From Bryobacteraceae bacterium (GTDB lineage Bacteria > Acidobacteriota > Terriglobia > Bryobacterales > Bryobacteraceae): a DNA stretch of 52,293 bases. The position numbers and the translations under genes were made by a program. Location of the stretch: contig JACZJQ010000186.1 in NCBI GenBank assembly GCA_014860455.1, forward strand, positions 1 to 52,293. Reading direction: 5' to 3'. Positions 8,213 to 36,019 of this stretch are shown here, in pieces. The notes beneath the pieces were generated by a model. That model saw only the letters and a program-made list of their open reading frames with translations. It did no database searches and was not told the DNA's origin. Numbering within the stretch: the first letter of the stretch is position 1; each line of letters starts with the position of its first letter.

Positions 8213-8972
8213 GAGGCTCCAGTTTCATCAGTTCGGCGAATTCGGGCAGTTCGCGGAGCTTGGCGAAGTCGTCGTCTTCCATGAACTTGTTCCTGTCCTT
8301 GAAGCCGAACTCAAGCGCTTTCCGGATGGAGAGCAGGGCGCGCTCCGCCTGCCCGGTCTTGGCATAGGTCTTGGCGAGATAGAAGTTGAACTTAGCCCGC
8401 TCCTCGACGGTTCGCTCCTGCAGCAACACGCCTTGTGTCGAACGGTTTTCGAAGACGTCGGGATCGAGTTCCATAGCGATCCGGTATTGCTCGGCCGCCC
8501 TGTCGTACTTCTTCCGTGCGAAGTGTGCCGTGCCCAGGTTCGAGTGCATCGACGCCGAATTCGGGTGCAGCTTCAGCGCTTTCTCATAGAAACTGACCGC
8601 CCGGCGGTAATTGCGTTTTGCATACCACACCGCGCCGAGGTTGTTGAGCGCCTCGGCATAATCCTTCTTCATACGGATGGAGCGCTCGTAGTAACGCTTT
8701 GCCATATCGAGTTCGCCCATCTGGTGGTAGGCGATGCCGGTCTTGTTGAGCAGGATCCAGGTCTGCGGCTTGATGCTGAGGTAGAGTTCCGCGGCCTCGC
8801 GAAACATCTTCCTGGCCATGAAGATATCGGCCCGGCCCTCATCGGTGAGTTGTGCCGGTCGCCCGGCCTCGATCGCGGGTGCGGCCTGTTCAGCGGGTTG
8901 CTGCCCTTGGAGATCCGCCGGCCTGCCCACTGCCAGAAGGATGACACACACGAGAGTGAAATACTTACACAT
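8202..8972 (-). CDS. Exported TPR-repeat protein
   Basis: About 256 residues. I chose the ATG at 8972 because of the strong GGGAGGCGGAG ribosome-binding site and the following signal peptide (MCKYFTLVCVILLAVGRPAD). At least four tetratricopeptide repeats are visible, with typical helix pairs: 'AYHQMGELDMAKRYYERSIR', 'AVWYAKRNYRRAVSFYEKAL' and 'AHFARKKYDRAAEQYRIAME'. It is a protein-interaction module without catalytic residues. It sits between the penicillin-binding protein gene (26 bp upstream) and the TPR lipoprotein gene (overlapping), so the three may form an envelope-assembly unit. That link is inferred from position only. Confidence 0.8.
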   Translation of the reverse strand: MCKYFTLVCVILLAVGRPADLQGQQPAEQAAPAIEAGRPAQLTDEGRADIFMARKMFREAAELYLSIKPQTWILLNKTGIAYHQMGELDMAKRYYERSIRMKKDYAEALNNLGAVWYAKRNYRRAVSFYEKALKLHPNSASMHSNLGTAHFARKKYDRAAEQYRIAMELDPDVFENRSTQGVLLQERTVEERAKFNFYLAKTYAKTGQAERALLSIRKALEFGFKDRNKFMEDDDFAKLRELPEFAELMKLEPRVL

Positions 8973-8998
8973 ACTCCGCCTCCCAAGCCACATTGGCT

Positions 8999-11488
8999 CT
9001 ACCTAAATATAGCCCGAATCCGGTCCAGGAACCCGCGTTTCGGAGCTTCCGGTTCAGGTTTGGGGGACGCCGGCGGCTTCGGTTGCTCCGGTCGGCCGCG
9101 GCGCGCCACGCGGGCAGGTCCAGACGTTTGGGATCCGGCGGGCTCGGCTGTCTGCTGCTCAACAGCCGCGTCGTCCCAGGCGGCGATCTGCGTCCTCTGG
9201 CCCGATCCGCCATGAAGCCGGCAGAACTCCACCGGCTGCGTCCCGGCGACAAAGACCTCTGCCCGCGGCTTGGGGCAGGCGGCGGTGGCCAGTTGGCCGG
9301 TGAGCGGATCGATATCCACCGTGGTGATGCCGTCGGGCGGCTGGAACGCCTGCACGCCGCGGTACTCGCGGTACTGGTGGGCGCGCTTCATGAACTCGGT
9401 CCAGATGGGCAGGGCGGCCTTGGATCCTTCGAGAGGCAGTTCCTGGTTGTTGTCGAAACCGACCCAGACGATGCAAAGCAGTTTCGTTGTGAAGCCCGCG
9501 AACCAGGCGTCGTGCGAGGTGCCGGTCTTGCCGGCCGCGGGCAGGCCGAATCCGCGGCTGCGCGCCCCGGCGCCGGTGCCGCTGCGCAACACCTCCTGCA
9601 TCAGGTCCACCACCATGTAGCTGATCCGCGGATCCAGCACCTGCCTGGTTACCGGAGTGTACTCGAAGATCCTGCCGCCGGATTCGCTCCGGATCTCCCT
9701 GATGAAATTATGCTTCGTCCACGTGCCGCCGTTCGAAAAAACCGTGTAGGCCGACGCCATGTCCAGAGGCGTCACCTCGTAGGCGCCCAGCGCCAGCGCC
9801 GGAGTGCCGCGCACCCCGCTCAAGCCCGCGTCGCGCGCCAGTTCGGCCACGGCATCATAACCCGCCATCTCGGCGAACTTCACCGTTGGAATATTCATCG
9901 ACTTCGACAACGCCTGGCGCAGGTTAACCAGGCCATGGAACTCCATCTTGAAGTTGTTCGGCTCGTAGGTCTTGTCGTCGAAGTAAAATGTTGTCGGCTC
10001 GTCCTCTACGGTAGAGACCGGCGTGATCAGTTCCGTTGATCCGTCGATGGCGCTGCGCAGCACCGAGGCATAGACGAAAGGTTTGAAAATCGATCCCGGC
10101 TGGCGGCGCGCCAGCGCCCTGTTCAACTGGCTTTCGCCATAGCTTCGTCCGCCAACCAGAGCCTTCACCTCGCCCGTCTTCGGGTCCAGGGCCACCAGCG
10201 CCACCTGCGGCTGCGGATATTTGCGCTTGCGCCGTGCCAGTTGATCGTCCACCTCTTTCATCCCCGCCTGGATGGCGGCGATGGCGTCGCGCTGCAGCTT
10301 CATGTCCACCGTCGTGTAAACGCGATAGGACTCGGCCTGGAAGTCGATCTCCTGGAACTGCTCCTGCAGAGTGTCGTGGATCAGGTCGACGAAATAGGGA
10401 GCGTCGGTGGATTCGACGCCGCCCTCGGCCAGGGCGATCGGTGCCTTGGTGGACTTACGGTAGTCGACTTCATTGATGAAGCCGTTGTCCCGCATCAGGC
10501 CGAGCACGATGTTACGCCGGTTCCTGGCCCGCTCGGGGTGGCGGTATGGATTCAGGTAGTTGGGCCGCTGAATCAACCCGGCCAGCATGGCCGCTTCCTC
10601 TACGGTCAACTGCCGGACATCCTTGCCCAGATAGACCTGCGCCGCCTCTCCGAACCCACGCACGGCGAAACTGCGCCGCATGCCGAGGTCGACGGAATTG
10701 ACGTAATGCTCGAAGATCTCTTCCTTGGTCAGCTTCTGCTCGATTTGCAGCGTGATCAGCGCCTCGACGGCCTTGCGCTTCCAGGTCTTTTCCTGGTCCA
10801 GCCAGATGGTGCGCGCCAGTTGCATGCTGATGGTCGATGCGCCGAAGCGTCGATTCTGGGTGACGTCCACCCAGATGGTGCGGATCAGCCGGATGGGATC
10901 GAAACCGGCGTGGGAGAAGAAGCGCTTATCCTCGGCCGAGAGGATGGCATTCACCAGCACCTGCGGGATGTCGCCGAAACGGATGATGCGGCGCTTCTGG
11001 CGGGAGCGGTCGAAGAGGTTGGTGAACAGTTCGGGCTCAAGGCCGATCTGATAACGGTCTGTGTGGTCGCGGCTGGAGAGGATGCGGGTGATGACGCCAT
11101 CCTGGATGAAGACGACGGCGGGTTCGGTGCGGGCGTAGGAATCGACCCCTGGGAAGAACTCGACGGCGTCGGCGCGGACGTGGTACCAGCCCATGCGGTT
11201 CGCGCGCGATTCGGTGTATCCGCGGGCCTTGAGGGCGGCTGCCAGTTCGGCGGAGGAAATGCGGTCGCCGACGCTGAGCGCCTCGGGCGCGGCGTAGAGC
11301 ATGGCCGTGCGGGCGAACGGCCCTTCCTTGAGCTTCTGGTCGATGATCCGGCTGTAGTGGACCCAGGCGTAAGTGAACAGCCCACCCACCGTGAGGATGA
11401 AAAACGCCATGACACCGGCGATCACCTTTCCGGCCCGGCTGAAAAACAGCCGGCTCAGATAGGCCCTACGTGGAATTTGGACACGCAA
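8999..11488 (-). CDS. mrcB: Class A penicillin-binding protein (transglycosylase/transpeptidase)
   Basis: Bifunctional peptidoglycan synthase that polymerises lipid II and cross-links stem peptides in the periplasm. One N-terminal membrane anchor (KVIAGVMAFFILTVGGLF) is followed by a UB2H-like region, the GT51 domain (AEDKRFF with the catalytic Glu, STISMQLART, KRKAVEALITLQIEQKLTKE) and the transpeptidase domain: PGSIFK (SxxK), KSMN (SxN) and AGKTGT. The open frame runs back to 11602 and overlaps the upstream gene. I placed the start at a TTG at 11488, which has AAGGAA upstream and gives about 829 residues, but this is uncertain because no ATG precedes the anchor. The C-terminal tail is Pro/Glu/Lys-rich. 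The UB2H-like region and TPR neighbours favour a PBP1b-like enzyme (mrcB) over PBP1a. Confidence 0.9.
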   Translation of the reverse strand: MRVQIPRRAYLSRLFFSRAGKVIAGVMAFFILTVGGLFTYAWVHYSRIIDQKLKEGPFARTAMLYAAPEALSVGDRISSAELAAALKARGYTESRANRMGWYHVRADAVEFFPGVDSYARTEPAVVFIQDGVITRILSSRDHTDRYQIGLEPELFTNLFDRSRQKRRIIRFGDIPQVLVNAILSAEDKRFFSHAGFDPIRLIRTIWVDVTQNRRFGASTISMQLARTIWLDQEKTWKRKAVEALITLQIEQKLTKEEIFEHYVNSVDLGMRRSFAVRGFGEAAQVYLGKDVRQLTVEEAAMLAGLIQRPNYLNPYRHPERARNRRNIVLGLMRDNGFINEVDYRKSTKAPIALAEGGVESTDAPYFVDLIHDTLQEQFQEIDFQAESYRVYTTVDMKLQRDAIAAIQAGMKEVDDQLARRKRKYPQPQVALVALDPKTGEVKALVGGRSYGESQLNRALARRQPGSIFKPFVYASVLRSAIDGSTELITPVSTVEDEPTTFYFDDKTYEPNNFKMEFHGLVNLRQALSKSMNIPTVKFAEMAGYDAVAELARDAGLSGVRGTPALALGAYEVTPLDMASAYTVFSNGGTWTKHNFIREIRSESGGRIFEYTPVTRQVLDPRISYMVVDLMQEVLRSGTGAGARSRGFGLPAAGKTGTSHDAWFAGFTTKLLCIVWVGFDNNQELPLEGSKAALPIWTEFMKRAHQYREYRGVQAFQPPDGITTVDIDPLTGQLATAACPKPRAEVFVAGTQPVEFCRLHGGSGQRTQIAAWDDAAVEQQTAEPAGSQTSGPARVARRGRPEQPKPPASPKPEPEAPKRGFLDRIRAIFR

Positions 11489-15557: not shown

Positions 15558-15630
15558 CAAGGAATAAGGGCGTTTTTGCTGCGTTTGAGGCTTGCGCGGC
15601 GTTGTTTATCCGGATATACCTGGATTCGGA

Positions 15631-16095
15631 GTGAAACCGGCCAAACCGTCTAAACCCGTCATCCTTTGCCTCGGCAACGCCGACCGCGGCGACGATGCGC
15701 AGGGAGCATGCTGCGCCGACATGTTGTCGCGGCGGGGCATCCCGGTCCAAATCCTTGCCGGCAAGGCATTCGAACTGCTGGACTACTTCCGGGCGCATCG
15801 AAGAGTGATCATCGTGGACGCAATCGTTTCGGGTAAGGAAGCCCCGGGCCATTTGCACCGGTTTGCTGGTCCGCCGGCTGAGTTGGCGGGTTTCGCGCCG
15901 TCGTGTTCGACACATGGGCTCGGACTGGGTGAGGCGCTCAGGCTGGGTGCGGTGCTGAAAGCGCTGCCGGAGAGGCTGACGATCCTCGGGATCGAGTCGA
16001 CTACATTCGAATGGGGCGCGGCGCCGTCACCTGAGGTCGCGGCATCGATGGAGGCGCTCGCACAAGCGGTGGCCGAGGAGTGGGAATCGGCCTAG
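15631..16095 (+). CDS. Hydrogenase maturation protease (HyaD/HycI family)
   Basis: Nickel-dependent endopeptidase that trims the C-terminus of a [NiFe]-hydrogenase large subunit after cofactor insertion. The family pattern is visible: LGNADRGDDAQG near the N-terminus, VDAIVSG with the metal-binding Asp, and STHGLGLGEAL with the metal-binding His. I prefer the GTG at 15631 (154 residues, directly before the first strand); the open frame extends to a TTG at 15592. The end overlaps the open frame of hypF, and the two are surely co-transcribed. No hydrogenase structural gene is in the window. Confidence 0.85.
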   Translation: MKPAKPSKPVILCLGNADRGDDAQGACCADMLSRRGIPVQILAGKAFELLDYFRAHRRVIIVDAIVSGKEAPGHLHRFAGPPAELAGFAPSCSTHGLGLGEALRLGAVLKALPERLTILGIESTTFEWGAAPSPEVAASMEALAQAVAEEWESA

Positions 16096-16121
16096 GCGGC
16101 TGTTGTACCATCACCGTTGCC

Positions 16122-18260
16122 GTGGACTTGAAGGCCACAAGACTCCGCATCTCGCTCGCAGGCGCGCTTCAGGGCGTGGGCTTCAGGCCGTTTGTCCACA
16201 ATCTGGCCGTTCCGATGGGGCTGGCCGGCTGGGTACGGAACACCGCGTCGGGTGCGCTGATCGAAGTTGAGGGCACACAGCCGGCATTGGACGACTTCCG
16301 GCGGCGATTGAGAGCGGAACTGCCCCCGGCGGCGATGATCCTGGCCGAGGAGTTTTCATGGCTGGCGCCTTCAGGAGTGGCTGGATTCGAGATCCAGGCC
16401 AGCGAACCAAGCGAACTCAAGACTGCCGTGATCCTGCCAGATCTGGCGACATGCCCCGCTTGCCTGCGCGAAATGAGGACGCCGGGCGAGCGGCGGTTCG
16501 GATATGCGTTCACCAACTGTACGCGTTGCGGGCCGCGCTACACCATCGTCGAAGCGATCCCCTATGACCGGCCGAACACGACCATGGCCAGATTCGAACT
16601 TTGCGAGGCCTGCCGGGCAGAATATACGGACCCGCGGGACCGGCGGTTCCACGCGCAGCCGATTGCCTGCCCGATGTGCGGGCCACGTCTGAGCGTAAGC
16701 ATCGAATCAGCGGCGGCTGTGCTGCGCGGAGGCGGGATTCTGGCGCTGAAGGGCATCGGCGGGTATCAACTGTTGTGCGATGCGGGCGACGAACCGGCAG
16801 TTCTGCGGCTGCGTGAGCGGAAGTTGCGGGAGTGGAAACCGTTTGCTGTGATGGCGCCGTCGGTGGAGCAACTGCGGCGGCACGCCAGGGTGTCGGATGA
16901 GGAGGCGGCGCTGCTGGAGTCGGCGGCGGCGCCGATCGTGCTGCTGGAGGCGATGGACGGGACAGGTCTGGCCCCGGCGGTGCGGCGCGGTTCGCCGTGG
17001 CTGGGGGCGATGCTGCCGTATTCCCCGCTGCACCATCTGCTGATGGAAGCGTTTCCGCATCCGGTGGTCTGTACGTCGGGCAATCTGTCAGACGAGCCGA
17101 TCGCCATCGCGAACGGTGAGGCCCAGGAACGGCTGGGCGCAGTGGCCGACGGCTTTCTGGACCACGACCGTCCGGTGGCCAGGCCGTGCGACGATTCGGT
17201 GGCGCGGATCACCGCCGGCCGGACCACGCTGCTGAGGCGGGCGCGCGGCTATGCGCCGATGCCGGTGTGGACGGGCCGCGCGATGCCCAAGGTGCTGGCG
17301 CTGGGCGGGCACTTGAAAAGCACGGTGGCACTGGCGGTGGGGCGGCAGGTGGTTGTGTCGCAGCATATCGGCGATCTGGATTCGCCGGAATCGCGCGACG
17401 CGTTTGTGAGGACGATCGAGGATCTTTGCCGGCTCTATGAATTCTCACCCGACGTGGTGGCGTGCGACCTGCATCCGGACTACTTTTCAACAGTTCACGC
17501 CAGTTCGTTTGGTTGCCAGGTGCGCCATGTCCAACACCACCACGCTCATGCGGCGTCGTGCATCGCCGAGAACGGGTTGGAGGGCGCGGTGCTGGCGGTG
17601 ACCTGGGATGGGACCGGGTTGGGGACGGACGGGACCATCTGGGGCGGCGAGATTTTCATTGTTGAAGGCTGGCAGTTCGAGCGGGTGGCGCATTTGAGGC
17701 CGTTTCTACTTCCCGGAGGCGATGCGGCGATGAAGGACTGTTCGAGGCCGGCGTCCGGCATCCTGCATGAGATTGGCCGGCCGTCACCGCACCTGACAAT
17801 ACTCGAACGGCGGTTGAACTGCGTCGAAACGACCTCGGTTGGGCGGCTGTTCGACGCGCTGGCGTACCTGGGCGGCTTCACCGATCGGAATCATTTCGAG
17901 GGCGAGGCAGGTCTGCTGATGGAAGCCGCGGCGATGCGGGAGAGCGCCGGGCGGGCGGTCCCGATGCCGGAGGGCGACTGGCGGGAGTTGGCGGCGGAGT
18001 TCATCGACAGGCCGTCGGCGCGGATGCTGCACGATTCGCTGGCGGGGTGGATCGTCGAGACGACCTTGGAGACTCGGGTGAAGCAAGTGGCGCTGTCGGG
18101 CGGGTGTTTCCAGAACGCGCTGCTGGTTTCGTTGGTGGTGGATGCGTTGGAGCGGAGGGGGATCCGGGTGGCGACGCACCAGAGGGTGCCGGCCAACGAC
18201 GGCGGGATCTCGCTGGGGCAGGCGGTGCTGGCGGCCCTGGACAGGTATTCGGCGGTCTGA
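16122..18260 (+). CDS. hypF: Carbamoyltransferase HypF
   Basis: Makes the CN ligands of the [NiFe]-hydrogenase active site by transferring carbamoyl from carbamoyl phosphate to HypE. Domains in order: acylphosphatase (LQGVGFRPFVHNLA), a zinc-finger pair (CPACLREM, CTRCGPRYT, CEACRAEYTDPRDRRFHAQ, CPMCGPRL), a YrdC-like domain (ALKGIGGYQLLCDAGD) and a Kae1-like carbamoyltransferase domain (VQHHHAHAAS, LSGGCFQN). About 712 residues from the GTG at 16122; the open frame begins at another GTG at 16080 overlapping the protease gene. All catalytic elements look intact. hypC, hypD, hypE, hypA and hypB are absent here. Confidence 0.95.
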   Translation: MDLKATRLRISLAGALQGVGFRPFVHNLAVPMGLAGWVRNTASGALIEVEGTQPALDDFRRRLRAELPPAAMILAEEFSWLAPSGVAGFEIQASEPSELKTAVILPDLATCPACLREMRTPGERRFGYAFTNCTRCGPRYTIVEAIPYDRPNTTMARFELCEACRAEYTDPRDRRFHAQPIACPMCGPRLSVSIESAAAVLRGGGILALKGIGGYQLLCDAGDEPAVLRLRERKLREWKPFAVMAPSVEQLRRHARVSDEEAALLESAAAPIVLLEAMDGTGLAPAVRRGSPWLGAMLPYSPLHHLLMEAFPHPVVCTSGNLSDEPIAIANGEAQERLGAVADGFLDHDRPVARPCDDSVARITAGRTTLLRRARGYAPMPVWTGRAMPKVLALGGHLKSTVALAVGRQVVVSQHIGDLDSPESRDAFVRTIEDLCRLYEFSPDVVACDLHPDYFSTVHASSFGCQVRHVQHHHAHAASCIAENGLEGAVLAVTWDGTGLGTDGTIWGGEIFIVEGWQFERVAHLRPFLLPGGDAAMKDCSRPASGILHEIGRPSPHLTILERRLNCVETTSVGRLFDALAYLGGFTDRNHFEGEAGLLMEAAAMRESAGRAVPMPEGDWRELAAEFIDRPSARMLHDSLAGWIVETTLETRVKQVALSGGCFQNALLVSLVVDALERRGIRVATHQRVPANDGGISLGQAVLAALDRYSAV

Positions 18261-19894: not shown

Positions 19895-21895
19895 TTACCG
19901 GGCGTGGGACCGGGTAACGCTGTACTGCGACGTGGTGCTGTGGCAGGCTGCGCAACCTTCACCAAGTTCGGCGTCAGTGTTGGTGGCGGCGTGAGCGGCG
20001 ACGGCCTTCGAGTCGTGGCAGGACGTGCAGATCGCCGTGGTACGGCCGGGGTTCGGGATGAGGTCGGCCGGGTGGTTGATCGCCAGCAGGCCTTCGCGGA
20101 GCGGCACCTGCTCGCTGCTGTTGACATGGCAGGCGTTGCAGTTGCGCAGATCGCCGGGGTAGCCGATGCCGTCATAGACGTGGGTGCCGATCGAGAAGCC
20201 GCGCTCAAGGGCAGCGCCGCGATGGATCTTATGGACCATCACGCCCAGATCGATAGACTTGCCGTCTCTGTCCGCGGCCGTGGGGTTGTGGCACAGGACG
20301 CACTGCTCGATGGTATTGCGTCCGCCGCCATGGAAGGTGAGATCGCCGTGGCAGGCGTTGCACTTGGCCATGGAGACGACCGTACGACGAGGAGCGACTT
20401 CCGAGTCATCAACTGAGAACGCCATCTGGACGTTTCTGCCGGTGTCGTTGACGCTGACCTGTTTGGTGGTGCCTTCGAGCAGGATGACCGTATTGCGGCC
20501 TTCGAGGGCGGCGGTCCAGGTGCCGGTGGCGTCGGCGGGCAGGGGCCGCGACATTGTCCACCAGTAAACGCCGTAGCCATTGCCGTCAGCATTGGCGACG
20601 TTGTCGTAGTACTGGGAGGTGTAGTCGGCGGCCGGGCCTGCGACATAGAGCCGGAGGCGGGACATCTTCGAAGCAACAACCGGATTGCCGGCCTTGTCTT
20701 CGACCGCGAAGACGATGAGCGGGTTCTGGCCGGGCTTGGCGTTGTGGACTTCAAGAATCTTGAAGGCGACGCCGGGCAGGCTGGTGGATTCGGTCGGGAT
20801 CAGATGGGCGCCATAGATGGAGACGTCGAAGTCGAGTTCGCCCTTGGGGATGTGGCACTGGGTGCAGAACTGATCGCTGAACTGCGGCAGACCGATGTGG
20901 TTCTCGCCAGTGTTGAAGTTGACGTTGTCATGGCAGGAGCCGCAGGCCCAGCGGGAAGCGTTCAAGTAGGCGGTGGCCTGCTTGGCGCCGGTGTTCTGCT
21001 CGTGGCAGGCGTTGCAACGGCGGCCGTCCGCAGGGAACACGATGTGGGAGTAGTCGTGCTCGGACTGCCGGTTGCCGATGATCAGATACTTGCCGCCGGC
21101 CTGGACGCTAGGCAGATCGGCGCCCATGTGGATCTTATGGGTCATTTCGACCATGTCCATGGAGAGGCCGGTGTCGGGATCGTCGGTCTGGCGGGTATGG
21201 CAGACGACGCAGACTTCCATCGTGCGGCGAGAGCCGCCATGGAGACCGAGTTGGTCGTGGCACTTATTGCAGGTGGCCGTCTTGATGACGTCGCGGGTGG
21301 TGGTGACGGCGGCTCCGCTGGGGACCCAGTCGTAGGTCGCGTCGTCGTAGCTGGTCGGGAAGTCGAACTCGGTCAGGTTGCGTGAACCGTATACGGCGAC
21401 GGTGTGGGTCGCATTCGGGTCGTAGCCTGCCGGCAGTTTCTTGCCGAAACGGTAGTCATAGACGCCTTCGGAGACCGCGGTCCAGGCACCGCCGGAATCA
21501 GTGCCGGCCTGAACAGCGCTCTGGCCGGTGATGGGACTGGTCTGGGTGCGGGTTGTATAGGCGATATATTGAGTCGCGCCGGCCGGGATGTGCGCGAGGA
21601 TGAAGCTGGCGCTGATGGGGCCCGGTGTAACGATGCCAAGACGATCAAGCCCAACGCCCATGGGGTCGGCCATTTTGACGCGGGCGGTGACGGTGCCATC
21701 CTGGGTGACGGTGACGCCGGTGATGGTAAAGACGAGTCCTGGACGTACGAAATTGACCTGAGCCTCAGTGGCGTAGTAGGCCTTGTCATTCTCTGTGAAG
21801 CCCGGCGGCGGCGCGCTCGACAATGCGACGGCGCCAACCAGCATGGCAGTGACGAGAAGGATCGTGAAGACGGATGTTCTGGATAGGTTTCTCAA
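19895..21895 (-). CDS. OmcA/MtrC-family decahaem c-type cytochrome
   Basis: Extracytoplasmic multihaem cytochrome, 666 residues, with a signal peptide (ending near ALSSAPPPG). I count exactly ten CXXCH motifs: CNKCH, CVVCH, CNACH, CGSCH, CTQCH, then CNACH, CVLCH, CNACH, CTSCH and CAACH, in two groups of five separated by a beta domain of about 170 residues. This matches the split-domain plan of OmcA/MtrC, which carry electrons to minerals or other extracellular acceptors. Unlike Shewanella MtrC there is no lipobox cysteine, and no mtrA/mtrB porin gene is nearby. The start is a TTG at 21895 behind AAAGGGGGGG. It is divergent from the acyl-CoA dehydrogenase/ETF operon. Confidence 0.92.
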   Translation of the reverse strand: MRNLSRTSVFTILLVTAMLVGAVALSSAPPPGFTENDKAYYATEAQVNFVRPGLVFTITGVTVTQDGTVTARVKMADPMGVGLDRLGIVTPGPISASFILAHIPAGATQYIAYTTRTQTSPITGQSAVQAGTDSGGAWTAVSEGVYDYRFGKKLPAGYDPNATHTVAVYGSRNLTEFDFPTSYDDATYDWVPSGAAVTTTRDVIKTATCNKCHDQLGLHGGSRRTMEVCVVCHTRQTDDPDTGLSMDMVEMTHKIHMGADLPSVQAGGKYLIIGNRQSEHDYSHIVFPADGRRCNACHEQNTGAKQATAYLNASRWACGSCHDNVNFNTGENHIGLPQFSDQFCTQCHIPKGELDFDVSIYGAHLIPTESTSLPGVAFKILEVHNAKPGQNPLIVFAVEDKAGNPVVASKMSRLRLYVAGPAADYTSQYYDNVANADGNGYGVYWWTMSRPLPADATGTWTAALEGRNTVILLEGTTKQVSVNDTGRNVQMAFSVDDSEVAPRRTVVSMAKCNACHGDLTFHGGGRNTIEQCVLCHNPTAADRDGKSIDLGVMVHKIHRGAALERGFSIGTHVYDGIGYPGDLRNCNACHVNSSEQVPLREGLLAINHPADLIPNPGRTTAICTSCHDSKAVAAHAATNTDAELGEGCAACHSTTSQYSVTRSHAR

Positions 21896-22152: not shown

Positions 22153-24393
22153 ATGGCCACGACGACCAGCACATCCCTGCCCACGCTCAAGACAATCCCC
22201 GGCGACGAGATCCGGCAGTTATTGTGGCGGTTTGAAGACCGATACGATTTGGCGATGCTGGTGCAGAGCGTGAGGGCGGTGGCGAGGGGACCTGTGGCGC
22301 GCCTGGTGGCTTCGGGCGGGCGGCTGTCGCACGACTGGACTCCAGAGAAGGACGCCCTGTTGCCGGAATACGATGCCGCCGGCATCACCGCCGCTTACAT
22401 GTCGCCCGAGGAGGGCGGCTTCCTCGAAGGGCCGAAGAACTTCGCGATGGCGCTGATCGCGTTTGAGTTGGCGTGGGTGGATGCGGGCGCGGCCACGTGT
22501 TCGCTGGCACAGCACCTGGCGTTGTCGCCCATCCACGAACGCGGCACGCCGGAGCAGCAGCAACGTTATATGTCGCTGGCGGCGCCGGCGCCGGGACGCA
22601 AGACATTCCGCGGCGCCTTCTGCCTCACCGAACCGATTCCTTATGTCGGCGTCGAGACGGGCATGCTGGGCGGCAGGGTGCGGGTGGCGTATTGGCCGAC
22701 GGAAGAGGAGATGGCGGCGGGCAAGGAGCCGATCCTTGAGGTGAGCAAGCGCGGCCGGTTCATCACCAATATGGGCTTCGCGAACTTCGTCACGGCGGCT
22801 GTGGACACCGACGACGAACGGATCAAGACGTCGTGCATGGTGATTCTGGAAGAGACAGACGAAGGTACCTACGACCGTGGGACGCCGACCAAGAAGCTGG
22901 TGCACCAGCTCTCGTCGACATCGGATCCTGTCTTCAACATGAAGGTGCCGGCATCGCGCATCATCGGCGGCTACAGGATTGAAGACGGCAAAGTTGTGCC
23001 GAACCACGATCATTCGTCGGTGATCGAGGCCGTATTCCGGCGGACGCGCGTGGGCGTCGGACTGATGACGTCATCGAAGCTGCTGTCGGCGATCGAGCCG
23101 CTGATCCGCTACCATCGCGACCGGTTCCGCGGATCGGGCGCGGTGACACCGGGCACGCCGAGATTCGAGCTTGGTTTGCAGCAGAAACAGGACGTCACGC
23201 ACAGGCTGCTTGAGATCTGGGCGGCGGGCGAGGCGTCGGCGTCGCTGGGATTCACTACGGCGCGGCTGTTCGACGAACTGGATCCGCTGGAAAAGACCAA
23301 GACTGCGATTCTGGCCGCTCATGGCATCGGCGGTGGCATGGCCGAGTTCAAGGCGCTGAAGAAGAGGCAGGTGGAGGCGATCGAGTTCCTCGACATGCAG
23401 GACCACCTCGAAAGCCTGCGGCCGAAGGCGCGTTACCAGGCGCTGGCGGAAGACGTTGTGGTTCAGTACGTCATCCTGGACGCCACGGCCAACGTGTTGT
23501 GTCCGGCGACCAAGTTGTGGAACACCGGCTACGGCTCGCACATGATGAGGGAGGCTGTGTCGCTGATGGGCGGCTATGGCATTACGGAAGACTGCCCTGG
23601 ATTCCTCTCCTACAAGTGGATGGACACGCAGCTTGAGGCGACCTACGAAGGTCCGGAGGCGGTGCAGCGGCGGCAGATGTCGGTGACCATGACCAACCCG
23701 GTCTTCCTGGCGCAGTTCCGCAACTGGATCCACGAGATGCGGCGGGTGGCATCGCACGACCCAGGAACCGGGGCCTGTACGCTGGCCTCGGCGATGAAGC
23801 TCTGGACATGGACGCTCGATCACCTTCAACTGGCCAAGGATGCCAACGGGACCAAGCTCTACCAATCGAACCGCCAGGGCGTGACTTTCCCGATGGCCGA
23901 CGCTCTGTGCTGGCTGCTGGCGTCAAGGGCGCAGATTCTGGATGTCGAGCGGTTGGCCGCGGAAGGTCCGAAGAACCCGGCGCTCGAAGACGGGCTGGAC
24001 GGAACGGTTCAGTTCCTGCGCGACCTCTGCCACATGCAGGCCGCCAGGGCCGCGGGCGAAGTGGCGCGGATCTGTACGGAACTGGTGTATGGCTACCTCT
24101 CGCACCCGTCATGGACCGAGCCGGGTTGCGGCGCCTGCCTGAGCCAGAACGACCTGGTGTCGATGGAAGCCCTGGTGCCGGGCGCGTCGGGATTCAGCGA
24201 CGAGACGGTGGGCGAAGGCGGCGTGCATGAGACCAAAGCGGGTCCGTGCGCGGTGCATCCGGGGTTGAACGACTTCGCCAAGCTGCGGGCAAAGCTGGAA
24301 GCCTGCATGACCGGCTTCCAACTGGCCAAGGACCGGGCCGGCGATTCGTTGACGAAGGTGATGATTCCGGCGGCGCTCGACTATCCGCAGTAG
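22153..24393 (+). CDS. Long acyl-CoA dehydrogenase-family flavoprotein
   Basis: FAD enzyme of the acyl-CoA dehydrogenase superfamily, 746 residues, about twice the usual 380. The core holds FRGAFCLTEP (substrate/FAD contact strand), an interrupted beta domain, and the C-terminal helical part with MREAVSLMGGYGITEDCPG and TYEGPEAVQRRQ. Glu499 in TYEG is at the position of the usual catalytic base. A further ~240 residues follow, helical and ending in a Cys-containing segment (EPGCGACLSQND), which I do not recognise. AAGGAG precedes the ATG. It is first in an operon with an ETF:quinone oxidoreductase-like protein and both ETF subunits, so its electrons very probably leave through that dedicated ETF. 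The substrate is unknown. Confidence 0.88.
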   Translation: MATTTSTSLPTLKTIPGDEIRQLLWRFEDRYDLAMLVQSVRAVARGPVARLVASGGRLSHDWTPEKDALLPEYDAAGITAAYMSPEEGGFLEGPKNFAMALIAFELAWVDAGAATCSLAQHLALSPIHERGTPEQQQRYMSLAAPAPGRKTFRGAFCLTEPIPYVGVETGMLGGRVRVAYWPTEEEMAAGKEPILEVSKRGRFITNMGFANFVTAAVDTDDERIKTSCMVILEETDEGTYDRGTPTKKLVHQLSSTSDPVFNMKVPASRIIGGYRIEDGKVVPNHDHSSVIEAVFRRTRVGVGLMTSSKLLSAIEPLIRYHRDRFRGSGAVTPGTPRFELGLQQKQDVTHRLLEIWAAGEASASLGFTTARLFDELDPLEKTKTAILAAHGIGGGMAEFKALKKRQVEAIEFLDMQDHLESLRPKARYQALAEDVVVQYVILDATANVLCPATKLWNTGYGSHMMREAVSLMGGYGITEDCPGFLSYKWMDTQLEATYEGPEAVQRRQMSVTMTNPVFLAQFRNWIHEMRRVASHDPGTGACTLASAMKLWTWTLDHLQLAKDANGTKLYQSNRQGVTFPMADALCWLLASRAQILDVERLAAEGPKNPALEDGLDGTVQFLRDLCHMQAARAAGEVARICTELVYGYLSHPSWTEPGCGACLSQNDLVSMEALVPGASGFSDETVGEGGVHETKAGPCAVHPGLNDFAKLRAKLEACMTGFQLAKDRAGDSLTKVMIPAALDYPQ

Positions 24394-24409
24394 ATCCGGG
24401 ACGGACGAC

Positions 24410-26239
24410 ATGGACGAGCTCAGCCCTCAGCAGCCGCAGGAGATCGAACAACCGGAGATGCCGGTTGAGCCCAAGCCGCTTGACGCCGACATCCTGTGCG
24501 TCGGCTTCGGCCCGGCAACGGGTGGTTTTCTGACCACGCTGACTCGTTTTCTTGCATCGGAAGAGGGCATGGCGGTGCAGAGCCGTGCGTTTCCAGGGAT
24601 GCCGCCGCAGGTGATCTGCTACGAGCGGGCCGACGACACTTCGTTTGGCGTTTCGGGAGTGGTGACGCGGGCGCGGGCGTTCAAGGCGAGTTTCCCGGAG
24701 TTTTCGCCGGCCGAGGTGCCGATGGCGGCGGCGGTGGCGGGCGAGAGGCTGGTCTTCCTGCTCGATCCGACGGGCGCGGCGAGGGTGCCGTGGTGGATGC
24801 GCGTGGCCGGCAATGCCATCGAGGCGCTCGGCATCGCGAGGAATTCAGCGTTCGAGGTTCCCTATATTCCGCCGTTCCTGCACAAGGGCGACGGGTTCAT
24901 CTTCTCGCTGGGCCAGTTGAATCAGTGGGTGGGCCAGCAGGTGATGATGACCGGCATGGCCCAGATCTGGCCGGCATCGCCGGTGGCCGAACCGCTGGTG
25001 GAAGACGGCGCGGTGAAGGGTATCGAACTGGCCGGCGACGGGACCGAGGTCCGGGGCGAGTTGACCGTCATCGGCGACGGGCCGGTGGGCGCGGTGAGCC
25101 GGCGGATCGATGAGATCTTCGGTATGCCCGAAGGCCACAGGCGCGACGAATGGGCCGTGGGCATGAAGTTCGTCATCGATCTGCCTGAGTCCTGCGATCT
25201 GGCCGAAGGGACGGTCTTCCATACGATCGGATTCCCGGAGCCGGAGATTTTCGGGTTCTTCTATGTCCATCCCGGAAGGGTGGCCAGCGCGGGCATCTTC
25301 GTGCCGTCGTGGTTTGAATCGCCGGTGCGGACGGCGTACAGGTATTTGCAGCATTTCATCCAGCACCCGTATCTGTGGCGTTATCTGAAGGGCGGGCGGC
25401 TGAGGAGTTGGGGCGCGAAGTCGATTCTCGAGTCCGGGCGCCACGGCGAACCTTACCTTTGCGGCGAAGGGTATGCGCGGATCGGCGAGGGGTCGGGTTC
25501 GACGAATGTGTTGACCGGCTCGGGCGTGGACGAGGCATGGCTGACGGGCGTTCAACTGGCCGAAGCCGTGGCCGGGATCTACAAGGAGGATCTGCCGTTC
25601 ACGAAGGCGAACCTGCAGGCGAAGTATGAGGCGAGGCGGCGGTCGTCGTGGCTGGAAGAGGAAGCCAAGGTGGCCGAACGGGCCAGGAGCGGGTTCCAAT
25701 CCGGGCTGTTTGCGGGGTTCACGGGCATGGCTCTGGCCGGGTTTACAGGCGGCAAGATGGCCTGGCCGAGGCCCAAACAGGACAAACGGCCGGCAACGCT
25801 CGAACAGTTTTACCGGACGCGGCTGTCGCCATCAAAGGTAAGAGAGTTACGGGCGAAGTGCGAGGCCGAAGGAACGGCGTTGCACGACGCGCTGATGGAT
25901 GAAGCCGGCTGGCCGAAGATCGAGCATGACGGCGAATTGCTGGTGACGCAGCAGGACGCGCTGCTGATGGGCGGCAAGGTGCAGGCGCCATCGGATGCGC
26001 CCGACCATGTCGTGATCCGCGAGCCGGAGCTTTGCCTCGACTGCCAGAACCGGCTTTGCATCGAGATCTGTTCCGGAGAGGCGCTGCGGCCGGGTGAGGC
26101 CGGCGTGCCGGCGTTCGACCGGGAGAAATGCGTCCACTGCGGCGCTTGTATGTGGAACTGCACGCGGGAGATCGCGCCCGGCGTGTCGAACATCGCCTTT
26201 TGCGCCGGCCCCGGCGGCCTGCACTCAGCGGAAAACTGA
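24410..26239 (+). CDS. ETF:quinone oxidoreductase-like flavoprotein with eight-cysteine ferredoxin tail
   Basis: 609 residues. The N-terminal FAD fold (DADILCVGFGPATGGFLTTL) and central part (VIGDGPVGAVSRRIDE; EGYARIGEGSGSTNVLTGSGVDEAWLTG) follow the FixC/ETF:QO plan. The tail is a fused ferredoxin with two four-cysteine groups, CxxCxxxxCxxxC (Cys542, 545, 550, 554) and CxxCxxCxxxC (Cys574, 577, 580, 584). Classical ETF:QO and FixX have one [4Fe-4S] cluster, so two clusters look possible here. The gene is 16 bp after the acyl-CoA dehydrogenase and 11 bp before etfB. Probable role: taking electrons from the adjacent ETF to quinone or ferredoxin. Reaction direction and acceptor are inferred. 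Confidence 0.82.
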   Translation: MDELSPQQPQEIEQPEMPVEPKPLDADILCVGFGPATGGFLTTLTRFLASEEGMAVQSRAFPGMPPQVICYERADDTSFGVSGVVTRARAFKASFPEFSPAEVPMAAAVAGERLVFLLDPTGAARVPWWMRVAGNAIEALGIARNSAFEVPYIPPFLHKGDGFIFSLGQLNQWVGQQVMMTGMAQIWPASPVAEPLVEDGAVKGIELAGDGTEVRGELTVIGDGPVGAVSRRIDEIFGMPEGHRRDEWAVGMKFVIDLPESCDLAEGTVFHTIGFPEPEIFGFFYVHPGRVASAGIFVPSWFESPVRTAYRYLQHFIQHPYLWRYLKGGRLRSWGAKSILESGRHGEPYLCGEGYARIGEGSGSTNVLTGSGVDEAWLTGVQLAEAVAGIYKEDLPFTKANLQAKYEARRRSSWLEEEAKVAERARSGFQSGLFAGFTGMALAGFTGGKMAWPRPKQDKRPATLEQFYRTRLSPSKVRELRAKCEAEGTALHDALMDEAGWPKIEHDGELLVTQQDALLMGGKVQAPSDAPDHVVIREPELCLDCQNRLCIEICSGEALRPGEAGVPAFDREKCVHCGACMWNCTREIAPGVSNIAFCAGPGGLHSAEN

Positions 26240-26250
26240 AGGAGTCTACG

Positions 26251-27048
26251 TTGCCTTACCAGATCATCGTCTGCGGTGGCCTTGCGCCCGACCCGCTTCA
26301 AACTCTTGAGCCCGTCCCGGGCGCGGCATCGCCCGGCCTGAAGAACGAAATGATGCTGCCCGGCGTGCTGGATCCATGGGCATCGCATGCGCTGTATGAA
26401 GCCGCGAACTTGGCCAAGCAGCATCCGGGATCGACGGTCCGGTTGGTGAGCCTGGCGCCAAAGGCGAAGTTGCAGCAGGTGCTGATGACGGTGGCGCAGA
26501 AACTGCCGTTCGAACTGATGGCGCTCGACGGGGCGAATAACGGCTTCTCGGACGCCAACGAAACCGGCAAGGCGCTGGGCGAGGCGATAGCGAAGCTGGA
26601 TCCGCCGATGGAGAACCTGCTGGTGTTCGGCGGGTGGGAGTCGGCCACCCGTGGTTCGGGCGCGGTGATGCAGATTGTGGCCGAGCGGCTGGGCATCGCG
26701 GATGTCTTCCTGGCGGTAGACGAGATCAAGGTGGAAGAAGGCGGATCGTTCCTGGTGAAAGAGCGCGTTGAAGGCGGCAAGCACATGGTGTCGCGCTGCT
26801 CGGCGCCTCCGGCGGTGCTGGCATGGGCGACGGGTAACTTGGCGGAACCTCCGAACCACCCGCAAACGGGCATGGCGAACATGCGCGTCATCATGCCGTC
26901 GCTGCAGAAGGCCACGCCCACGGCGGTGGGCAGCGGGATGTCGTTCGCATCGGCGTCGCTGCCGAAGCAGGTGCGGGAGACGCGCATCGTGAAGGACACG
27001 TCGGCGGCCGAGATAGCGCGAGAAATCGCCGAGTGGCTGAAGCAGTAG
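26251..27048 (+). CDS. etfB: Electron-transfer flavoprotein beta subunit
   Basis: 265 residues from a TTG at 26251, which has AAGGAG 6 bp upstream. The longer in-frame start at 26128 would overlap the ferredoxin tail and is rejected. The ETF alpha/beta Rossmann-like fold is recognisable: MLPGVLDPWASHALYEAANLA, VRLVSLAP, LVFGGWESATRGSGAVMQIVAERLG (the etfB signature region) and a C-terminal arm with ASLPKQVRETRIV. No cysteine cluster is present, unlike some bifurcating systems. It pairs with the divergent etfA 18 bp downstream. Confidence 0.9.
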   Translation: MPYQIIVCGGLAPDPLQTLEPVPGAASPGLKNEMMLPGVLDPWASHALYEAANLAKQHPGSTVRLVSLAPKAKLQQVLMTVAQKLPFELMALDGANNGFSDANETGKALGEAIAKLDPPMENLLVFGGWESATRGSGAVMQIVAERLGIADVFLAVDEIKVEEGGSFLVKERVEGGKHMVSRCSAPPAVLAWATGNLAEPPNHPQTGMANMRVIMPSLQKATPTAVGSGMSFASASLPKQVRETRIVKDTSAAEIAREIAEWLKQ

Positions 27049-27066
27049 AGGGGGAGGCAATCAGAC

Positions 27067-28041
27067 ATGGATAAGATTCTGGTTCTCATTCACACGGTCG
27101 AGGGCGGCGCGCTGCCGAACGCGGCGCTGGAGACGCTGGCGGCGGCGCAGTCGCTGGGCGGCGAGGTTGTGACTGGCGTTTTCGGCGAAGGCGCGGGGCC
27201 ATCGATCGGGTCGCTTGCCGTTGAAGGCGAGGCGTTTGCCCAGGCGCGTTATGCGACCGACGCGGCGGCCTGCGAGGCGCTGATCAAAGCCTCGGGCGCG
27301 GCCATCGTACTAGCGCCGCATACCTCGCGTATGGCCAGGGCGCTGCCCGGCGCGGCGGCGAGGTTGGGCGGCGTGGTGGACACGCATGTTGTGGCGGTGA
27401 ACACGTCGGACGGCGCGGTGGAGGCGTCGCGGTGGTTCTACCGGCAGCGGATCGAAGGGACGTTTTCGCGCGCGGCGCGGCCGTGGGTAGTGCTGATCGA
27501 GCCGGGCTCGTATGAACCGGCCGAGGCGGCGCCGGCGGCGGCGGTGACGAAGTTGGAAGTAACGGTTGGGTCAAAGACGCAGATGGTCGGGTTCGAGTCG
27601 CCGGAGACAGGCGAGCAGACGATCCGGCCGGATGCCGAGACGCTGTTTGTCGCCGGCGCGGGCTGGACGAAGAAGCAGAAGGACGGCCAGACGCATACGC
27701 CCGAAGCGGCGGAACTAATTATGGGCTTCGTACGGGGCGCGAAGTCGTCGCTGGGATCGTCGAAGTCGCTGGTTGATATGGGCAGCGAAGGCCAGTCAGT
27801 GCTGCCGTTCCTGACGCACCTGCACCAGATCGGGCAGACCGGATCGACGCCGCGGCACAAGAAGGGACTGGCCACCTGCTGCCACGGTGAAGAGCCCCAC
27901 GTGGTGGGCTGGCGGTTTGTCCGCGAGCGAAGGGCGGTGAACATGGACGCCAACTGCGGCTGGGCGCGCGGAAAGGCTGATGTCCTCTATGTCGCCGACG
28001 CCTTTGAGGTGATGCGGGAGTTAAACAGGTTGCTCGGCTAA
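27067..28041 (+). CDS. etfA: Divergent electron-transfer flavoprotein alpha subunit
   Basis: 324 residues behind a strong GGGGGAGG. The N-terminal domain (MDKILVLIHTVEGG... AIVLAPHTSRMARALPGAAARLGG) and the C-terminal FAD domain (HQIGQTGSTP, ADVLYVADAFEVMRELNRLL) follow EtfA. The segment that normally reads like GISGAIQH is replaced by CCHGEEPHVVGW (Cys271, Cys272, His273), and NKDPEAPIF is replaced by NMDANCGWARG. These changes lie where FAD is held, so cofactor potential or contacts may be altered. It ends the operon, followed by a hairpin at 28072-28100. The alpha-subunit assignment is confident; a changed redox role is inference. Confidence 0.85.
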   Translation: MDKILVLIHTVEGGALPNAALETLAAAQSLGGEVVTGVFGEGAGPSIGSLAVEGEAFAQARYATDAAACEALIKASGAAIVLAPHTSRMARALPGAAARLGGVVDTHVVAVNTSDGAVEASRWFYRQRIEGTFSRAARPWVVLIEPGSYEPAEAAPAAAVTKLEVTVGSKTQMVGFESPETGEQTIRPDAETLFVAGAGWTKKQKDGQTHTPEAAELIMGFVRGAKSSLGSSKSLVDMGSEGQSVLPFLTHLHQIGQTGSTPRHKKGLATCCHGEEPHVVGWRFVRERRAVNMDANCGWARGKADVLYVADAFEVMRELNRLLG

Positions 28042-34948: not shown

Positions 34949-36019
34949 ATGAGCGCCGAAGGAGTCAAAGGCGCGGAACTGGACCTGAGGGCGAGGTCCC
35001 CGCTGAGGATCGTCTCAATCGGCGGCGGGACGGGGCTATCAACGCTGCTGAAAGGGCTGAAACGCTACTCGCACGTCAATGCGCAACTGCCGTCGCCGCA
35101 CCCGCTGGCGGACCTGACGGCGGTGGTGACGGTGACCGACGACGGCGGCAGTTCGGGCCGTCTGCGGCGCGAATTCGGCGTGCTGCCGCCCGGCGACATC
35201 CGCAACTGCATGGTGGCGCTGGCCGAGGATGAGGGGTTGCTGACGCGGCTGTTCAGCTTCCGCTTCGACGCGGGGCACGGGTTGCGCGGCCACAATTTCG
35301 GCAACCTGTTTCTTACGGCGATGAGCCAGGTGACGGGCGATTTCGGCCAGGCGGTGAGATTCAGTTCCGAGGTGCTGGCGATCGCCGGGAAGATCTACCC
35401 TTCGACGGCGTCGAGGGTGACGCTGCGGGCGCATCTGGAAGACGGAAAGGTGTTGGATGGCGAGACGCGGATCAGCAGGAGCGCGGCGAGGATCCGGAGG
35501 ATTGAACTGGCGCCGGGCGACTGCCGCCCGCTGAAGGAGACGCTGAAGGCGATCGGCGAGGCGGACCTGCTCACGATGGGTCCGGGATCGCTGTTCACCA
35601 GCGTTGTGCCGAACCTGCTGGTGAAAGGCATACCGCAGGCGATCCGGCGTTCGCAGGCGCTGAAAGTATGCTTCATCAACCTGATGTCGCAGCCGGGCGA
35701 GACGACGGGGCTGACGGCGTCGGATCACGTGAAGGCGATCTGCGAGCACGCCGGCATGAGGCTTGTGGACGTGGCCGTGGTCAACAACGAACCGGTGGCG
35801 GCGCCGGCGCGCCGGCGGTATGCGAGACAGTCCGCGGCTCCGGTGGAAAATGACATCGAGGCGATCCGGGAGATGGGCGTCGAGGTGGTAATCGCCCCGC
35901 TGGTGGAACCCGGCGAGAAGATCAGGCACGATCCGGAGGCGGCCGCGCTGGTGGCGCTGCAACTGGCGAAGAAGGGGCGGCGAGCGCGGTTGAGGCGGCG
36001 AAGGGGCGGCGCGTCCTGA
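34949..36019 (+). CDS. yvcK: YvcK/CofD-like gluconeogenesis factor
   Basis: 356-residue protein of the YvcK family, which binds UDP-sugars and is needed for correct cell-wall metabolism on gluconeogenic carbon sources in Bacillus. The glycine-rich nucleotide loop is IGGGTGLS (24-31). The hallmark TDDGGSSGRLRREFG starts at 63, followed by PPGDIRNCMVALA, GHNFGNLF and TMGPGSLFTSVVPNLL. It ends in a basic tail (KKGRRARLRRRRGG). It lies 13 bp before glmU, which makes UDP-GlcNAc, a known YvcK ligand, so the operon makes functional sense. Confidence 0.93.
   Translation: MSAEGVKGAELDLRARSPLRIVSIGGGTGLSTLLKGLKRYSHVNAQLPSPHPLADLTAVVTVTDDGGSSGRLRREFGVLPPGDIRNCMVALAEDEGLLTRLFSFRFDAGHGLRGHNFGNLFLTAMSQVTGDFGQAVRFSSEVLAIAGKIYPSTASRVTLRAHLEDGKVLDGETRISRSAARIRRIELAPGDCRPLKETLKAIGEADLLTMGPGSLFTSVVPNLLVKGIPQAIRRSQALKVCFINLMSQPGETTGLTASDHVKAICEHAGMRLVDVAVVNNEPVAAPARRRYARQSAAPVENDIEAIREMGVEVVIAPLVEPGEKIRHDPEAAALVALQLAKKGRRARLRRRRGGAS

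Follow-up and report, generated by a model that had tools for sequence, protein, structure and literature searches.

The window, by which we mean the whole stretch of 52,293 nucleotides analysed here (Bryobacteraceae bacterium, assembly GCA_014860455.1, contig JACZJQ010000186.1), carries four consecutive forward-strand genes at 22153-28041 that encode, in this order in the list of open reading frames (ORFs), an acyl-CoA dehydrogenase (ACAD), an oxidoreductase resembling electron-transfer flavoprotein:quinone oxidoreductase (ETF:QO), and the EtfB and EtfA subunits of an electron-transfer flavoprotein (ETF). This set is probably an uncharacterised respiratory branch rather than any known kind of electron bifurcator. 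The four genes behave as one all-or-nothing module; what is new about it is the ETF pair and the conservation of the unit itself, not the ACAD domain. Family databases (Pfam and NCBIfam) rate the parts merely as generic ACAD and ETF, which leaves the four-gene unit hidden; none of the NCBIfam models displayed reached its cut-off for any of the four proteins (25 of 40 being displayed for the oxidoreductase), and PHROG returned no match for ACAD, EtfB or EtfA. The sequence-only reading from which this work started had suggested a possibly undescribed system, and we saw no description of the unit among the open-licence papers that our searches brought up.

ETFs are usually regarded as hubs for many dehydrogenases; here, mostly in metagenome-assembled genomes (MAGs) of little-known bacteria, one dehydrogenase apparently has an ETF and a quinone oxidoreductase to itself. 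If this is true, a new class would be added to the classification of ETFs, flavin-site loops unseen in nine reference ETFs would be revealed, and there would be a route to the substrate that these bacteria oxidise through a separate branch. The features of the operon are as follows.

22153-24393, forward strand: ACAD, 746 aa (Pfam, aligned orthologues, AlphaFold2 model)
23647-23649, forward strand: codon of Glu499, the predicted catalytic base, in the motif YEGPEAVQRRQ (Glu in 53/53)
23671-24390, forward strand: C-terminal helical domain of ACAD, residues 507-746 (fold alignments; no Pfam match)
24410-26239, forward strand: ETF:QO-like flavoprotein with a C-terminal eight-cysteine ferredoxin domain, 609 aa (Pfam, profile, fold)
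26015-26179, forward strand: ferredoxin domain of the oxidoreductase, CxxCx4CxxxC ... CxxCxxCxxxC, residues 536-590 (eight invariant cysteines)
26251-27048, forward strand: EtfB-like subunit, 265 aa, TTG start preferred (PF01012, tree branch)
26638-26661, forward strand: EtfB loop ESATRGSG, replacing loops of the DGDTAQVG or NQTG type (alignment)
27067-28041, forward strand: EtfA-like subunit, 324 aa (PF01012 over its cut-off, PF00766 under)
27877-27900, forward strand: EtfA motif CCHGEEPH, replacing GISGAIQH at the presumed flavin site (41/41)

Conservation of the four-gene unit

The tight spacing of the genes was borne out, with Pfam domains in each protein and intergenic gaps of 16, 11 and 18 bases, given an EtfB start at TTG 26251. 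This start was chosen because AAGGAG lies just upstream of it; the longest ORF would begin at ATG 26128, inside the oxidoreductase gene. A profile-guided scan of genome contigs yielded 470 stretches matching the pattern, 447 of which encode ACAD relatives, and the counts that follow rest on the best 80. By record title these loci belong to Acidobacteriota (53), Verrucomicrobiota (20), Methylomirabilota (2) and one each to Eiseniibacteriota, Omnitrophota and Armatimonadota, with 2 unassigned; nearly all are MAGs, so that individual phylum assignments may be wrong. All four genes stand at one locus in five of these phyla: Acidobacteriota, Verrucomicrobiota, Methylomirabilota, Omnitrophota and Armatimonadota. 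Among loci with room on the contig, tblastn placed the oxidoreductase within 1500 bases downstream of ACAD in 57 of 60, and both ETF subunits within about 5.5 kb in 35 of the 52 that have the oxidoreductase and further room. The unit is thus kept together in several bacterial phyla, and because adjacency persists at these loci the set of ORFs is not a chance arrangement.

Twenty loci are incomplete, 17 lacking etfBA and three the oxidoreductase, yet the genomes behind all 20 carry an EtfA of this family: 19 of the matches score 551-587 bits and one is a 319-bit fragment at a contig end, against 37-64 bits for other EtfA proteins. The oxidoreductase was likewise recovered from all seven of the genomes with incomplete neighbourhoods that were tested, at full length in six and as three pieces of a 568-aa frame in the other. 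Of 199 Acidobacteriota genomes, seven have the full ACAD (the window's own genome, G054, G073, G104, G121, G156 and G171) and three more have the C-terminal domain alone; the oxidoreductase is present in the same seven, and the family EtfA in these plus G164, an 82% complete draft. Coincidence in the same seven of 199 has a chance of 4.5e-13 if genomes are independent, which they are not, and this figure serves as a guide only. Plasmid records gave no EtfA match, and only three match part of ACAD; one contig from a viral collection (L107) encodes an ACAD relative, with no oxidoreductase match in the 1.3 kb remaining downstream.

Clustering of ORFs from 92 loci placed the four subunits foremost (68, 65, 31 and 30 loci). 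Clusters 4 (25 loci) and 5 (9 loci) consist, by the coordinates of their members, of antisense-looking ORFs over the four genes and were excluded as neighbours; every other cluster is confined to at most eight loci. These counts are low, since the clustering took non-overlapping ORFs of at least 90 aa and lost true genes to overlong antisense ORFs, for which reason the tblastn counts were used for synteny. The proposal that the unit replaces ordinary ETF:QO as a rule found no support: PF05187 is absent from three of the seven holders (the window's own genome included) and present in four, the corresponding count being two of eight among non-holders.

Divergent ETF subunits and the folds of their partners

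Judged by sequence, EtfA and EtfB are a very divergent branch of the ETFs in which both cofactor loops have been rewritten. Both carry the ETF domain PF01012 (42.2 bits for EtfB and 59.4 bits for EtfA, cut-off 26.7). A separate contig of the window's own genome (356 contigs, 95% complete) encodes an ordinary EtfBA pair as well, and PF00766 is matched above the cut-off in this genome only by the ordinary ETF, on C269. Aligned with nine reference EtfA/FixB sequences, all 41 family EtfA proteins have CCHGEEPH in place of GISGAIQH, and DxNCGWA replaces DxxAPIF, its Cys297 being invariant (36/36). The invariant set is Cys271-Cys272-His273-Glu275-Glu276-His278 together with Cys297, at sites that read GISGAIQH and INxDxxAP in canonical ETFs. 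EtfA retains GQTG, the QH-pair His and SK-S-VD, in which Lys stands for the Arg of the canonical SR motif. In EtfB the loops with AMP- or FAD-binding roles (the NQTG loop binding AMP) give way to a loop of the type ESA[ST]RGxG, in which Ser134, Ala135 and Arg137 (numbered from 26242) are invariant (30/30), and neither DGDTAQ nor NQTG occurs in any of 42 EtfB sequences. Among the references, DGDTAQVG is found in rhizobial-type FixA and G041, and NQTG in Sphingobium and Pseudomonas; neither is found in the ordinary EtfB of the window's own genome or in the rows of Fusobacterium, Natribaculum and E. coli, which makes NQTG a weak criterion.

Quick trees set each family apart from its references. 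EtfA (branches of 6.4 plus 3.6 changes per site) and EtfB (4.5 plus 1.0) each separate from nine reference rows with an SH-aLRT of 100, and the oxidoreductase is divided from eight ordinary ETF:QO and three FixC rows by 4.2 changes per site. Close clustering with the ordinary ETF and ETF:QO of fatty-acid oxidation, which would have spoken against a new system, was thus not seen, each of the three proteins forming a deep separate branch. The trees comprised 26 (EtfA), 27 (EtfB) and 29 (oxidoreductase) rows with 9, 9 and 11 references, the rest being the window's own sequence together with 16, 17 and 17 family rows taken out of 41, 42 and 69; the EtfA tree omits L072, whose sequence bears a deletion, and mycofactocin ETFs and T. 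maritima EtfAB are absent. They are used for separateness only and not for placing a root, given long end branches, a meeting of the long E. coli FixA and Fusobacterium EtfB branches, and a meeting of FixC with the oxidoreductase family.

The oxidoreductase matches PF21162 (ETFQO_UQ-bd, 32.6 bits, cut-off 27.7) and, narrowly, the 4Fe-4S domain Fer4_6 (26 bits, cut-off 25), with no match to PF05187 (Fer4_ETF_QO) at E 0.1. Against the PDB its profile is closest to porcine ETF:QO (2gmh, E 1.9e-38), T. maritima EtfC following at 4.2e-5. Structure prediction covered this protein and ACAD. The oxidoreductase model (pLDDT 84.9, pTM 0.88) aligns in VIA-align over 504 residues with 2gmh (Z 29.7, rmsd 3.4) and over 362 residues with T. 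maritima EtfC, 7koe_C (Z 28.0, rmsd 2.5); Pfam, profile and fold agree that the ETF:QO fold includes the quinone-binding domain. The fusion of this flavoprotein to a ferredoxin held up, since a single polypeptide carries both parts and all eight ferredoxin cysteines are invariant in 52/52 oxidoreductases. The best PDB sequence match of the ferredoxin part is 2vpw_B, named NrfC protein. Two ordinary acidobacterial ETF:QO (L125 of G084 and L126 of G023) have CxxxC-x7-CxxxC ahead of CVHCKTC, possibly marking a second Fe-S cluster in canonical ETF:QO. Extra Fe-S cysteines are therefore not unique to the oxidoreductase family, which counts against its novelty.

ACAD scores above the Pfam cut-offs in its N domain (35.9 bits, cut-off 22.9) and C domain (37.3 bits, cut-off 22.4), and its 52 aligned orthologues share 59-75% identity with it. 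Glu499 is Glu in 53/53 sequences and shares an alignment column with the FEG/YEG glutamate of two references, Fusobacterium Bcd and the G041 ACAD; we take it to be the catalytic base of the C-terminal YEG motif, a role assigned from ACAD biochemistry. Relative to the same two references the core also retains GGYG and the Asp of the RD position. Genome G156 has a second ACAD copy (L017, 7205-9652) that is about 65% identical up to residue 677 and divergent beyond it, and tblastn of the other three subunits found no match in this 19-kb locus.

The last 240 or so residues of ACAD, taken initially for an unrecognised domain, indeed match no Pfam family; their fold, nevertheless, is known. Up to about residue 660 at least, the C-terminus of the AlphaFold2 model (pLDDT 85.6, pTM 0.87) resembles the second helical domain that long ACADs of the VLCAD/ACAD9 type carry. 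Among the Foldseek matches listed the best is 3owa (E 1.4e-16), and FadE5 is also present. VIA-align gives Z 27.6 for 3owa (531 residues, rmsd 3.5) and Z 27.4 for 2z1q (511 residues, rmsd 3.3), both alignments extending to model residue 738, and next VLCAD, ACAD9 and FadE2 at Z 25-26, where the alignment ends at 650-681; aligned spans for 3owa, 2z1q, VLCAD, ACAD9, FadE1 and FadE2 are 480-543 residues. The domain was modelled within the full ACAD, and residues 660-738 are covered by few alignment rows, most of the others ending by about 680.

Four cysteines of the domain (Cys542, 662, 699 and 718) are conserved in 50-52 of 53 fused ACADs and are readable also in all three stand-alone forms, which are encoded by separate genes at loci of three other genomes. 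At L023 (G041) this gene lies at about 8009-8653 on the reverse strand, diverging from a cluster of etfB, etfA and ACAD in which the ETF has DGDTAQ, SPTxV and RPAFGG; at L024 (G029; about 601-1410, forward) and L025 (G042; about 8400-9132, forward, with a start perhaps earlier) it is directly upstream of an ACAD. The stand-alone protein is possibly an accessory subunit of acyl-CoA dehydrogenases. What is new about the domain is its existence as a gene of its own, not its fold. The initial view of unusual domains is weakened, the ACAD domain having a known fold and extra Fe-S cysteines recurring in two ordinary ETF:QO.

A proposed relay and its alternatives

We favour, with moderate confidence, the view that the operon specifies a self-contained, non-bifurcating relay from acyl-CoA through ACAD, EtfAB and the oxidoreductase to menaquinone, which is the quinone pool of Acidobacteriota. 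The long-chain-type ACAD would oxidise an acyl-CoA or a related thioester, and its FADH2 would reduce the cognate, highly derived EtfAB; this in turn would hand electrons singly to the fused flavoprotein-ferredoxin, with its FAD and two clusters, which would reduce menaquinone at the membrane. The direction of electron flow, the quinone acceptor, two [4Fe-4S] clusters and the specificity of the partners are what we infer. A private route from one dehydrogenase through its own ETF to its own oxidoreductase had been implied by the sequence-only reading, and it is backed by synteny and near-perfect co-occurrence; we adopt it because of these and because of the catalytic Glu, the long-ACAD fold, the ETF:QO fold and the invariant Fe-S cysteines.

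Several observations weigh against this relay. The TEPxAGSD loop, a hallmark of ACADs that both reference ACADs in the alignment (Fusobacterium Bcd and G041) keep, is replaced by TEP[IL]P[YF]xGV in 88/88 ACAD sequences, AGSD occurring in none (0/88), and so the substrate may differ from an ordinary acyl-CoA. Recurring genes for an acyl-CoA ligase, hydratase or thiolase were not seen beside the operon at the 92 loci, where the smaller clusters were left without annotation. The FAD domain of EtfA, PF00766, reaches 17.9 bits against a cut-off of 27, and three invariant cysteines lie within the presumed flavin loops, on which grounds the flavin chemistry of EtfA may be unusual. Co-occurrence was assessed for ACAD, the oxidoreductase and EtfA, the link to EtfB being one of synteny only, and the genomes are mostly draft MAGs in which some absences may be gaps.

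The altered TEPxAGSD loop is one argument for a different role, which we consider unlikely, in which the ACAD-like subunit would act on something other than acyl-CoA (a carrier-bound acyl group, a lipid or a small molecule) in a biosynthetic or detoxifying step, not in beta-oxidation. The lack of any beta-oxidation gene seen recurring nearby and the patchy occurrence (7/199 genomes) point the same way; the overall ACAD fold, the C-terminal architecture of long-chain ACADs and the presence of the catalytic Glu argue for the ordinary chemistry. We give less credence to a distinct class of ETF in which the electron-transferring flavin site would have been converted into a redox centre rich in thiols. 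Its electron-transfer chemistry would be new and might involve, for instance, a thiolate paired with the flavin, a covalently bound flavin or an Fe-S cluster replacing the flavin. EtfB would there function without loops of the AMP or the bifurcating-FAD type, the cysteine-bearing ACAD C-domain and the eight-cysteine oxidoreductase would join in, and electrons might be split by a route other than that of group 2.

Lower again we place a bifurcating or confurcating complex like EtfABCX, made of EtfAB and a fused EtfC-EtfX with ACAD as donor or acceptor, although the types of part correspond: an ETF pair, a FAD/quinone protein of the EtfC fold and a ferredoxin part. PMC10734219 gives the motifs of bifurcating group-2 ETFs as RPxFGG (with the flavin-N5 arginine), GxxSPTxV and RxGV, and places the first in EtfB and the others in EtfA. 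In the controls RPxFGG belonged to FixB, and FixA had SPTxV and RQGV; the subunit names in that paper appear to be swapped, and for this reason both subunits were searched for each motif. RPxFGG, SPTxV, RxGV and DGDTAQ are absent from all 41 EtfA and 42 EtfB sequences of the family, so that the suggestion of conceivable electron bifurcation found no support, at least by the group-2 route. The S. fredii and P. sprentiae FixAB controls carry RPxFGG, SPTxV (without the literal GxxSPTxV), DGDTAQ and RQGV, and G041 EtfAB has RPxFGG, SPTxV and DGDTAQ without RxGV. Absence of the motifs alone is no proof of non-bifurcation, because E. coli FixAB and Fusobacterium EtfAB likewise lack them. Two further points favour such a complex: the first Arg of RPxFGG is retained in 35/36 EtfA sequences, the remaining row being deleted there, and the top PDB profile hits for the two ETF subunits come from Bcd-Etf (5ol2_A) and caffeyl-CoA reductase-Etf (6fah_B), which we take to be bifurcating complexes. 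Against it stands the strong preference of the oxidoreductase profile for porcine ETF:QO over EtfC. Nor does a ferredoxin economy mark the holders: PF01558 (pyruvate:ferredoxin-type) is present in 190/199 Acidobacteriota genomes, including all seven holders, and was rejected as a marker for its failure to discriminate.

A reversed relay, in which menaquinol or another donor would reduce an enoyl-CoA through the ETF, seems very improbable: Fusobacterium ETF can feed electrons to Bcd for crotonyl-CoA reduction, according to PMC12630350, but ETF:QO-type enzymes move ETF electrons to quinone, according to PMC13083937, and no sequence feature favours reversal.

Neighbouring genes and known systems

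Divergent from the operon lies a gene for a decahaem c-type cytochrome of the OmcA/MtrC family (19895-21895, reverse strand; NCBIfam TIGR03507, 455 bits). We rejected it as a component: at E 1e-5 it matched at a single locus (L027) of 81 in the scan and at none of 11 further loci, the upstream side being short in many, and L027 is the closest relative of the window, with an ACAD 97% identical to that described here. Elsewhere in the window are genes for a HycI-type hydrogenase maturation protease followed by HypF (15592-18260, forward), which suggest a hydrogenase system in this Bryobacteraceae genome; a CofD-family protein resembling 2-phospho-L-lactate transferase (34949-36019, forward, 358 bits); and an acyltransferase domain fused with an AMP-binding, acyl-activating domain (43098-45239, reverse).

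Among known systems, the mycobacterial ETF:menaquinone oxidoreductase EtfD likewise moves ETF electrons to menaquinone; PMC13083937 describes it as a membrane heme/CCG-domain protein, calls it not homologous to ETF:QO, and names a homologue with the same cluster motif in Acidobacterium capsulatum. Such a homologue may serve the ordinary ETF in genomes without ETF:QO; no ETF:QO of the PF05187 type was found in the 95% complete genome of the window. Long ACADs (VLCAD, ACAD9, FadE5, FadE1/2, 3owa and 2z1q) share with the present ACAD a core followed by a second C-terminal helical domain, but identity to those listed by VIA-align is 14-19%, and here the C-domain has conserved cysteines and is a separate gene elsewhere, and the TEPxAGSD loop is changed. 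EtfABCX/FixABCX, as in T. maritima (7koe) and rhizobia, also bring together an ETF pair, a FAD/quinone protein and a part of the Fe-S ferredoxin type, whereas here the EtfC- and EtfX-like parts form a single chain, an ACAD belongs to the operon, bifurcation motifs are lacking and the trees are separate. The beta-oxidation chain of ETF and ETF:QO has the same three layers of ACAD, ETF and ETF:QO, and the fold of the present oxidoreductase matches its porcine ETF:QO, 2gmh; the present system differs in forming a deep branch of its own, in having an eight-cysteine ferredoxin instead of PF05187, in its altered ETF cofactor loops and in the gathering of all its genes in one operon.

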